This document shows positions 6,818 to 36,622 of a DNA stretch of 39,221 bases, piece by piece. Position 1 is the first letter of the stretch. Each line of letters starts with the position of its first letter. Origin of the DNA: Verrucomicrobiota bacterium. GTDB lineage: Bacteria > Chlamydiota > Chlamydiia > Chlamydiales > SM23-39. The stretch lies in contig JAGWKU010000001.1 in the NCBI GenBank assembly GCA_028873375.1, positions 75,763 through 114,983 on the forward strand, written 5' to 3'. The translations under genes and the position numbers were made by a program. The notes under the pieces were generated by a model, which did not search any database, was not told the DNA's origin, and saw only the letters and a program-made list of their open reading frames with translations.

Positions 6818-6844
6818 TCAAATGTAAAGCCGCTTTACATTTGA
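6818..6844. repeat. Palindromic repeat copy 1: TCAAATGTAAAGC-C-GCTTTACATTTGA
   Basis: Perfect 13-bp arms with 1-nt centre, just past the pgsA stop codon; same core as copies at 20357 and 36602. Confidence 0.85.
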
Positions 6845-19537: not shown

Positions 19538-20041
19538 ATGGAAAACAGATTTCCGGTTTTTCGGACAGGGATTGGGCAAGATAGTCGCCGATTTTTATCC
19601 GCTGATTCATCCAAGCCATGCATTATTGGGGGCGTTATTTTTGAAGGCACTCCTGGTCTCGATGCTGATTCCGATGGAGATGTTGTTTATCACGCGATTT
19701 GCAATGCGATTACTTCTCTCACAGGTGTTCCGATTCTCAGTGGAATTGCGGTCGAACTTTATCGCAAAGATGGAATCACCGATTCACAAGTATATCTAGA
19801 ACGAGCGCTCAAAACTCTTCATAAGCAAACGATTATCCATGTCGCTCTTTCCATCGAGGGAAAGCGGCCTCATTTTGAAGAAAAAATCGAGGCGATGCGC
19901 AAGAAAATTGCTCACGTGCTTGGCATTCGCTTTTCGCAAGTGGGTCTCACCTCCATCTCTGGCGACGGTCTCACCGACTTTGGTTGCGGTGACGGTCTTC
20001 AATGTTTCTGCACTCTCACCACCGCCGAAGAGCCCCTCTAA
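19538..20041 (+). CDS. ispF: 2-C-methyl-D-erythritol 2,4-cyclodiphosphate synthase (divergent)
   Basis: RTGIGQDSRRFL, IIGGVIFE, DSDGDVVYHAICNAI; location next to cysJ as in Chlamydia. Confidence 0.88.
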   Translation: MENRFPVFRTGIGQDSRRFLSADSSKPCIIGGVIFEGTPGLDADSDGDVVYHAICNAITSLTGVPILSGIAVELYRKDGITDSQVYLERALKTLHKQTIIHVALSIEGKRPHFEEKIEAMRKKIAHVLGIRFSQVGLTSISGDGLTDFGCGDGLQCFCTLTTAEEPL

Positions 20042-20074
20042 CCCTACTTTACATTGTTAAATAAAAAGAGAAAA

Positions 20075-20335
20075 AAATGGAATCTCCCGACCGTCGGGCT
20101 GTTCCGATCTCGCTCCACCCCCGCGGCCCAGGGGCCCTACCTGAGACTTTGCCGATCGGATGTCCTGACGGGCATCCTATCGCGTATTCCCCACCCCTAA
20201 AGGCGATGCGCCTTTGGGGACCCCGGCGCCGCTCGTCGTGCACGCGAAAGGGCGTGCAACGACTGGTCCTCGAAGCCGCAGGTAGGCCCCTGAGCCGCGG
20301 GGCGCGGAGCATCCCGACGGTCTGTGGTGATTAAC
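20075..20335 (-). ncRNA. Candidate structured RNA / GC-rich multibranched inverted-repeat element
   Basis: P1 20091-20098 with 20313-20320; 32-nt arms 20112-20143 with 20279-20310; hairpins 20158-20177, 20194-20219, 20235-20263; minus-strand 3' hairpin CCCGACGGTCGGG followed by a T-rich tract. Confidence 0.5.
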
Positions 20336-20356
20336 CTTTCTTTTCCATTTATTCCT

Positions 20357-20379
20357 AAATGTAAAGCGGCTTTACATTT
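20357..20379. repeat. Palindromic repeat copy 2: AAATGTAAAGC-G-GCTTTACATTT
   Basis: Perfect 11-bp arms with 1-nt centre, 14 bp past the cysJ stop. Confidence 0.85.
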
Positions 20380-20393
20380 GAAGGAAAGGGTTG

Positions 20394-21515
20394 TTAGTAA
20401 ACGTCTTGGAGATAGTGGCGGGAGTGGCGGAGCGATTTGAGATATTCACGCGCTTTGTCTTCAGGCAGATGGCCGCATTCGCGAGCGATGCGTTGGAGAG
20501 TGAGATCGACATCCTTCGCCATTTTCTCTGCATCGCCGCAGACATAGAGGTAGGCGCCTTCTTGGAGCCATTTCCAGAGAGTTTCTCGTTCTTCCCAGAG
20601 ACGATGTTGTACGTAGGTTTTTTCGGCTGTGTCGCGAGAGAAAGCAAGGCTAAGGCGGAGCCGTTGTTGCCGTTCGAGTTCGAGCCAGTAGTCAGAGTAA
20701 TAAAAGTCGGTGGCTCGATTTCGCTCTCCAAAGATGAGCCAATTGCGTCCTTTGTGTTGGAGTGCGAGGCGCTCTTGTAGAAATGCTCGGAAAGGGGCGA
20801 TGCCAGTGCCAGGGCCAATGAGGATGATGGGAGCTTCGGGGTCGGCTGGCAATGTAAAGCCATTCGAAGGCTGGAGGTAAATGGGAATGGAAGTTTCTTG
20901 CGGCTGGGCATATTCGCAGAGGAAATGACTTCCCACTCCTTGCCGAGTACCGCCGAGAACTGGATAGGTGAGAAATGCAACGGTGAGATGGATTTCCTGG
21001 GGAAATACTTTTGGCGAAGAGGCAATAGAGTAGAAGCGGGGCATTAGGGGAAGGAGGATGGCACAGAGCTCTTGTGGTGTGATGGGGGCTGGAAAGAGAT
21101 GGAGTAGGTCGATGAGCTGGTGGGTAGCAAGCAGTTCTGTGAGCAGGTGTTTGTTTTCAGGAATGAGGAATTCTTCGAGACCCGAAGCACCTCTCTCTCT
21201 GAGCAACTTGAGTAGAGAGGAGGTGCATTTGGCAAGATTCGCTTTGAAGAGGAGAATTTCGCGAAGGGAAAGCGTGCGATTAGAGCGAGTGTCGAAGATC
21301 GATTCTTCCCCTGTCGCGTGGAAATAGCGAAGAATTTTTTCGATGAGAGCTGGGTCGTTCATCGGGAGAACGGCGATGCTATCGCCCACCTGGAAAGGGA
21401 AATGATCCTGCCCTAGATCTAGGCTGATGTGAAACGTCCGCTTCGTCGATCCCGGCTTGTTGAGGAGGAAGCGTTCCTTGATCTTCGCGATAAATGGGTT
21501 GGTTTTAGAGTGCAT
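20394..21515 (-). CDS. cysJ: Sulfite reductase flavoprotein-like (FAD/NADPH-binding) oxidoreductase lacking the flavodoxin domain
   Basis: MPRFYSIASSPK, VGSHFLCEYA, ILIGPGTGIAPFRAFLQER, YVCGDAEKMAKDVD; start at MHSKTNPF. Confidence 0.85.
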   Translation of the reverse strand: MHSKTNPFIAKIKERFLLNKPGSTKRTFHISLDLGQDHFPFQVGDSIAVLPMNDPALIEKILRYFHATGEESIFDTRSNRTLSLREILLFKANLAKCTSSLLKLLRERGASGLEEFLIPENKHLLTELLATHQLIDLLHLFPAPITPQELCAILLPLMPRFYSIASSPKVFPQEIHLTVAFLTYPVLGGTRQGVGSHFLCEYAQPQETSIPIYLQPSNGFTLPADPEAPIILIGPGTGIAPFRAFLQERLALQHKGRNWLIFGERNRATDFYYSDYWLELERQQRLRLSLAFSRDTAEKTYVQHRLWEERETLWKWLQEGAYLYVCGDAEKMAKDVDLTLQRIARECGHLPEDKAREYLKSLRHSRHYLQDVY

Positions 21516-21543
21516 TGACAAGTGGTTGATCTCTCGTTACATT
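21515..21543 (+). promoter_or_regulatory. Sigma70-type promoter TTGACA-N17-TACATT
   Basis: Perfect -35, 17-bp spacer, 4/6 -10; upstream of an AGGAG and ATG for the small lipoprotein; -35 overlaps the cysJ start codon. Confidence 0.6.
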
Positions 21544-35275: not shown

Positions 35276-36603
35276 TCATTGCAATTGACGGCCCTTCTGG
35301 AACGGGCAAATCTACAGTCGCTAAAAGCGTCGCTAAGCAGCTAAAGTTTACCTTCTTCGATACGGGGGCGATGTACCGCTCCTTTGCCTGGTGGGTCTTG
35401 AAGCAGCAAATAGATCCTCACGATGAAGAAAAGGTGAAAGTGGCTCTGACTGGCTTTGAATATCAGATTGAAACCGATCCTGCTCGTGAACGGAGATACA
35501 TTGTCAATGGAATTGATGTATCTATGGCCATTCGGACGCAAGAGATCTCTACTGCGGCTTCGATCGTAGCCAAGTATCCCGATGTTCGACAAACAATGGT
35601 CAAGATTCAACGCAAATACGGAGCGCTAGAAAACACGGTCTTTGAAGGACGCGACATGGGAACTGTCGTCTTCCCTCAAGCAGAAGTGAAGGTTTTCTTG
35701 ACGGCGAAAGCAGAAGTCAGAGCTGAACGGCGTTATCGCGAACTCCTTATCAAATTCCCCGATCTCACCGAATCTCTCTCTTTCGAACAGATTTTAAAAG
35801 AAACTGAAGAGAGAGACCGAAACGATATGACCCGCGCTATTTCCCCTCTCAAGAAGGCGCCCGATGCTATTTTAATCGACACCTCTTATCTCACGGCACA
35901 GCAAGTCATCGATCAGATCATTGCCCAAGTGAAGCTAAAGCAAAAAAAAACTTCTTTTTCGATGGGAATTTTTTATGGGGTTGTCTACTGGCTAGCCCGT
36001 CTCTATTTAAAGCTCTTTTATCGCTTGAAAATTTACGGATTGTCCCATTTTCGTTCCGGATCTGCGATCATTGCGGCAAACCATGCTTCCTATTTAGACC
36101 CTCCGGTGGTATCGATCTCTTGTCCCGAAGAAGTCCATTTCTTGGCCAAGGAATCTCTTTTCCGGGTGCCTGTGCTTGGATTTCTCATTCGTCATCTCAA
36201 TTCTCATCCGGTCAGCCGAGATGTAGGAGATGCGACGACGTTTCGACTGATCATTAACCTTCTTCAAAAAGGGAAAAAGATCATCCTTTTCCCCGAAGGA
36301 AATCGAACGGCCGATGGGCAGCTCCAGCCGATTGAACGAGGACTGGCTTTCCTAACAATGAAAGCTCGCTGCCGCATCCAGCCCGTTTACATCTCAGGCA
36401 CCTTTAAGGTTTGGCCTCCAGGTCGCCCCTTTCCCAAATTTTTTGGTCGCATTGCCTGCGTTTTTGGCTCTCCTATTGAATGGGAAGAGTTTGAAGGATT
36501 AGAAAAAAGAGAAGCTGAAAAGCAAATTACCGAGCGGATGAAAAGGGCTCTCTACAATCTAAAAAACTGGTACGATGCTGGCGCTAAAGGCTTTCCACCT
36601 TAA
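35272..36603 (+). CDS. Fused cytidylate kinase / 1-acyl-glycerol-3-phosphate acyltransferase (Cmk-PlsC)
   Basis: N-term IAIDGPSGTGKSTVAKSVAKQL, FFDTGAMYR, FEGRDMGTVVFP; C-term NHASYLDPPVV, LFPEGNRTADG (PlsC HX4D and PEG). Confidence 0.93.
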   Translation: MIIAIDGPSGTGKSTVAKSVAKQLKFTFFDTGAMYRSFAWWVLKQQIDPHDEEKVKVALTGFEYQIETDPARERRYIVNGIDVSMAIRTQEISTAASIVAKYPDVRQTMVKIQRKYGALENTVFEGRDMGTVVFPQAEVKVFLTAKAEVRAERRYRELLIKFPDLTESLSFEQILKETEERDRNDMTRAISPLKKAPDAILIDTSYLTAQQVIDQIIAQVKLKQKKTSFSMGIFYGVVYWLARLYLKLFYRLKIYGLSHFRSGSAIIAANHASYLDPPVVSISCPEEVHFLAKESLFRVPVLGFLIRHLNSHPVSRDVGDATTFRLIINLLQKGKKIILFPEGNRTADGQLQPIERGLAFLTMKARCRIQPVYISGTFKVWPPGRPFPKFFGRIACVFGSPIEWEEFEGLEKREAEKQITERMKRALYNLKNWYDAGAKGFPP

Positions 36604-36622
36604 TGTAAAGCGGCTTTACATT
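36602..36622. repeat. Palindromic repeat copy 3: AATGTAAAGC-G-GCTTTACATT
   Basis: Perfect 10-bp arms with 1-nt centre; overlaps the cmk-plsC stop codon and contains the thiN stop codon. Confidence 0.85.

Follow-up and report, generated by a model that had tools for sequence, protein, structure and literature searches.

The GC-rich palindrome between ispF and cysJ is very likely a single copy of a palindromic repeat that is lineage-specific, dispersed, and non-autonomous, of the MITE or palindromic-element kind. The repeat is probably mobile DNA. (By "the window" we mean the whole stretch of DNA that was analyzed, which is 39,221 nucleotides long.) The original prediction offered two options for this element, a structured non-coding RNA (with minus-strand transcription favored) and a mobile repeat with structure. 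The mobile repeat held up and the minus-strand RNA did not: about eight lineage-specific copies are dispersed in the genome, and in relatives the ispF-cysJ spacer is empty or differently occupied. The copies, from the genome of an environmental chlamydia, make up what appears to be an unreported family of dispersed palindromic repeats in groundwater Chlamydiota, and repeats of this kind may partly account for the breaks in these assemblies. (We found no earlier report of this repeat family in the open-access papers that we searched, which is less than a full literature check.)

The window copy (Table 1) has a GC content of 67% at 20100-20299, versus about 50% in its flanks. Its closing arms are 89% complementary and its inner arms are 94% complementary. 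Three internal hairpins are predicted, and the overall shape is multibranched. The GC content, the arms, and the folds bear out the predicted GC-rich stretch with a closing stem, long arms, and three hairpins. When both strands were folded and compared to shuffled sequences, as had been proposed, the z-score was -9.1 for the plus strand and -7.9 for the minus strand, and none of 200 shuffles matched the folding of the element on either strand. After comparing 13 ends from eight copies, we place the limits of the repeat at about 20060-20354, which is slightly wider than the original 20075-20335, because the AT-rich ends (AATAAA...TTTATT) are common to other copies.

Table 1. The palindromic repeat, its parts and neighbors, and related palindromes. 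Coordinates are positions in the window unless a locus is named.
Feature	Position	Strand	Basis
Upstream convergent gene, ispF	19538..20041	+	Pfam YgbB, E 3e-28
Half of the 23-bp palindrome, left flank (CTTTACATTG)	20047..20056	none	Direct reading; compared across copies
Type A palindromic repeat as a whole, with its AT-rich ends AATAAA.../...TTTATT	20060..20354	none	End comparison, C55 homology through the right end, fold
Left closing arm (GACCGTCGGGCTGTTCCG), conserved end motif of type A	20089..20106	none	Complementarity and end comparison
Left inner arm (CCCCGCGGCCCAGGGGCC)	20119..20136	none	Complementarity
Internal hairpin 1 (GATCGGATGTCC TGAC GGGCATCCTATC)	20154..20181	none	Direct reading and fold
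Core segment, in opposite orientation to C55, C12, and C113	20172..20242	none	blastn orientations
Internal hairpin 2 (CCCCTAAAGGCGATGCGCCTTTGGGG), module common to other palindromic elements	20194..20219	none	Sequence matches
Internal hairpin 3 (CGTCGTGCACGC GAAAGG GCGTGCAACGA)	20234..20264	none	Direct reading and fold
Right inner arm (GGCCCCTGAGCCGCGGGG)	20285..20302	none	Complementarity
Right closing arm (CGGAGCATCCCGACGGTC)	20305..20322	none	Complementarity and end comparison
23-bp palindrome (AAATGTAAAGCGGCTTTACATTT), separate dispersed motif adjoining the repeat	20357..20379	none	Genome-wide site count
Downstream convergent gene, cysJ-like flavoreductase	20394..21521	-	Pfam FAD_binding_1 and NAD_binding_1
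TATACCG...CGGTATA loci	L145-L152, L156, L102:5558-5721, L046:5021-5229

We searched the rest of the genome (a draft assembly of 1.74 Mb in 150 contigs, 94% complete) and found about eight scattered copies of this repeat, which we call type A, including the copy in the window. The others are on contigs C6 (at 45.4 kb), C12, C55, C66, C113, and C132, with a diverged one on C70. Over their main matched stretches, the copies are about 79-92% identical. They appear to be intergenic, and by simple mechanical ORF calls, six of the eight lie between convergent genes. The ends AATAAA...GCCCGTCGGG are common to the copies, in inverted orientation, and all matches to the end motif in the genome fall in palindromic copies. 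The copies are mosaics, with variable interiors. C55 and C12 are the longest copies (~470 nt) and fold as nested palindromes; the inner palindrome is missing from the window and C6b copies; in C113, much of one arm is gone; and C66 and C132 retain mainly one half of the repeat. Internal hairpin 1 is also present in C12, C6b, C66, and C132. In blastn alignments, window positions ~20172-20242 are reversed relative to C55, C12, and C113 while the flanking parts keep the same orientation, which implies that a hairpin module flipped between copies. That the type A copies are few and diverged counts against our reading, as far as recent mobility is concerned.

The BLASTN comparison to Chlamydiota that had been suggested turned up homologues dispersed within the element's own genome; the type A element is absent from 233 other Chlamydiota genomes, except for one shared hairpin module. 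This module (hairpin 2) is also found in palindromic elements of contig C62 of the same genome and of G014 and G025; the two other groundwater Chlamydiota with this hairpin, which there lies in a different palindromic element, are RIFCSPHIGHO2_12_FULL_49_9 and NC_groundwater_921. There was no match to the element in plasmid and phage collections, nor in viral contigs, which were searched with the hairpin-module pattern alone.

ispF and cysJ are convergent neighbors, with both stop codons placeable, in 19 other genomes of the family. The two genes overlap or sit 6-8 nt apart in 13 of these, and the other six spacers are 21, 29, 41, 105, 211, and 825 nt. Among relatives that share this gene order, no homologue of the window element was found at the locus. 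Unrelated palindromes occur in the spacers of G019 (41 nt) and G020 (105 nt), and the 825-nt spacer of G014 has two small ORFs and a TATAC-type palindrome. (Read by eye, the small ORFs beside this palindrome, at locus L079, look like a MazF-like toxin-antitoxin pair.) The 105-nt palindromic insert of G020 (locus L077) has near-identical sequences on its two sides, TAATAGACGTC and TAATAGACATC, which may be a target-site duplication. An exact empty site was not found in any close relative; the genus is represented by one genome.

These comparisons also bear on whether the element is a trans-acting structured non-coding RNA that is transcribed from the minus strand, which we consider very unlikely. 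Such an RNA would fit with the very stable predicted fold and with the seven two-sided pair-keeping cells counted on five copies (versus 1-4 in slid controls), although the alignment behind that count is too mixed, with C6a and C6b badly placed. However, the element is absent from this locus in relatives, and among the copies, the core is inverted and the interior is variable. The original prediction had also argued that A/C mismatches in the long arms favored the minus strand, but this was not borne out: with G-T pairing forbidden, the single mismatches inside stems of five copies, read on the plus strand, comprise 11 G.T and 16 A.C (p = 0.44). The stems of the window copy have two A.C and one G.T. 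Similarly, the folding energy of the window core is -147.9 on the plus strand and -147.4 on the minus strand, and the differences between strands run both ways among the copies. We did not find a promoter-like site. Rfam 15 gave no matches to known structured RNA families in the window at the gathering score, which also argues against an RNA. That the window element is a newly found conserved RNA gene is not supported, and this candidate should be dropped from the list of RNA genes unless RNA data disagree.

Nor is the element at all likely to be a short protein-coding gene, which we view as an extremely improbable explanation. Two open frames, of 85 and 87 codons, do span it (20077-20334 on the plus strand and 20049-20312 on the minus strand), but GC-rich DNA gives long open frames by chance, and these two have no Pfam match. 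Furthermore, the inversion and the length differences between copies would probably break both frames.

We also considered that the repeat might now be kept as a two-way transcription terminator or 3'-end stabilizer between convergent genes, which is compatible with a mobile origin. This is possible but somewhat doubtful. The convergent setting of six of the eight copies argues for it, as do the ends, which are A-rich before and T-rich after the GC-rich stem on either strand. Other genera have different palindromes in the ispF-cysJ spacer, and in other bacteria REPs are likewise concentrated in spacers between convergent and co-directional genes (PMC3733652). However, insertions are also least harmful at gene ends, and in most relatives ispF and cysJ overlap or abut and nothing separates them, so the genes can do without such an element. 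A scan for simple intrinsic terminators (a short GC-rich hairpin and then a T run) found no sites in 19900-20500, which also counts against this role, although the scan does not model long stems.

We return to the mobile palindromic repeat as the best explanation. We propose that DNA transposition or hairpin-mediated copying dispersed the repeat, and that it entered or survived at gene ends, a setting in which no promoter is disrupted. Once inserted, the repeat would leave a very stable hairpin at the 3' end of each of the two convergent mRNAs, and as a side effect this may limit read-through or slow decay. The original prediction took interspersed copies with target-site duplications as the mark of a transposable repeat. 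The dispersed copies are there (about eight), but no clean target-site duplication could be made out: the flanks of C55 each hold a complete 23-bp palindrome, itself a genomic repeat. No transposase gene with type A ends was found in the draft assembly. As drivers, we rejected Y1 transposases, which are present in this genome as fragments alone, and IS630-type (DDE_3) transposases, which are present in part; for neither was a link to the repeat shown. We also noticed that a search for SbcD came up empty in this genome and that none of the 32 genomes of the family (f1) has a match over the curated cut-off, while 8 of 14 control genomes do. This lack of SbcD matches would agree with long palindromes being tolerated, but it is no proof.

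The palindrome beside the repeat, AAATGTAAAGCNGCTTTACATTT, is a motif in its own right. Its 19-bp core has 37 exact sites in the genome and none in the control; in the window, the palindrome is at 6822-6840, 20357-20379, and 36603-36621. It flanks C55 on both sides, lies to the right of the window copy (with half of one on the left), and is on one side of the C6b, C132, and C70 copies, an association that we noticed post hoc and without a proper null. Contig C6, with 6.6% of the genome, has 13 of the 37 core sites (p about 4e-7, also noticed post hoc). In G027, there are 21 sites (with up to 1 mismatch), none of them on contig C13 (at least 465 kb). The distribution hints at a regional, macrodomain-like pattern. 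At the ends of genes, the palindrome frequently overlaps the stop codon. We dropped the idea that TGTAAAGC is a DNA uptake signal, as its solitary copies are without the extended context found in the palindromes.

A second class of GC-rich palindromes, TATACCG...CGGTATA, measures 164 bp here and reaches ~220 bp in other genomes, and its ends carry 5'-TA. It turns up in 11 of the family's 32 genomes, with 40 partial matches in this genome and 25 to 37 each in G003, G004, G014, G025, G030, and G031; the copy numbers are lower than these counts because many matches are halves of one element. Several of the copies in this genome are at contig ends. One hairpin module is common to this class and type A. 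Conceivably, though we think it improbable, the several types of modular palindromes, with their shared hairpin parts and their preference for convergent gene ends, and the adjoining 23-bp palindrome, which is clustered in part of the chromosome, together make up a chromosome-organizing or gene-end system that is specific to this chlamydial family, and are more than mobile DNA.

Among known repeats, REP units are 20-40 bp. REP and BIME are modular palindromic units that concentrate at gene ends (PMC3733652), and type A copies are also modular palindromes at gene ends. However, REPs have RAYT transposases, while this genome has just Y1 transposase fragments that are not linked to the repeat. 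The Correia (NEMIS), ERIC, and RUP MITEs have TA at their termini (PMC2229807), as does the TATACCG...CGGTATA class, but type A lacks such ends. In architecture only, type A also seems comparable to the Rickettsia palindromic elements (RPEs), which are palindromic repeats with long stem-loops, scattered through the genome of a bacterium that depends on its host; RPEs measure 105-146 bp and frequently sit in frame within genes (PMC2229807), while type A copies are larger and appear to be intergenic. The closest described parallel appears to be YPAL (RU-2) of Yersinia, which is 168 bp (versus ~240-480 for type A) and for which target-site duplications (3-26 bp) and filled and empty sites were shown (PMC2229807). 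YPAL is palindromic, has no cargo, and is not AT-rich, and its targets span dyad symmetries or lie next to them (PMC2229807). Similarly, and again by architecture only, type A is palindromic, has no cargo, is not AT-rich, and often adjoins the 23-bp palindrome.
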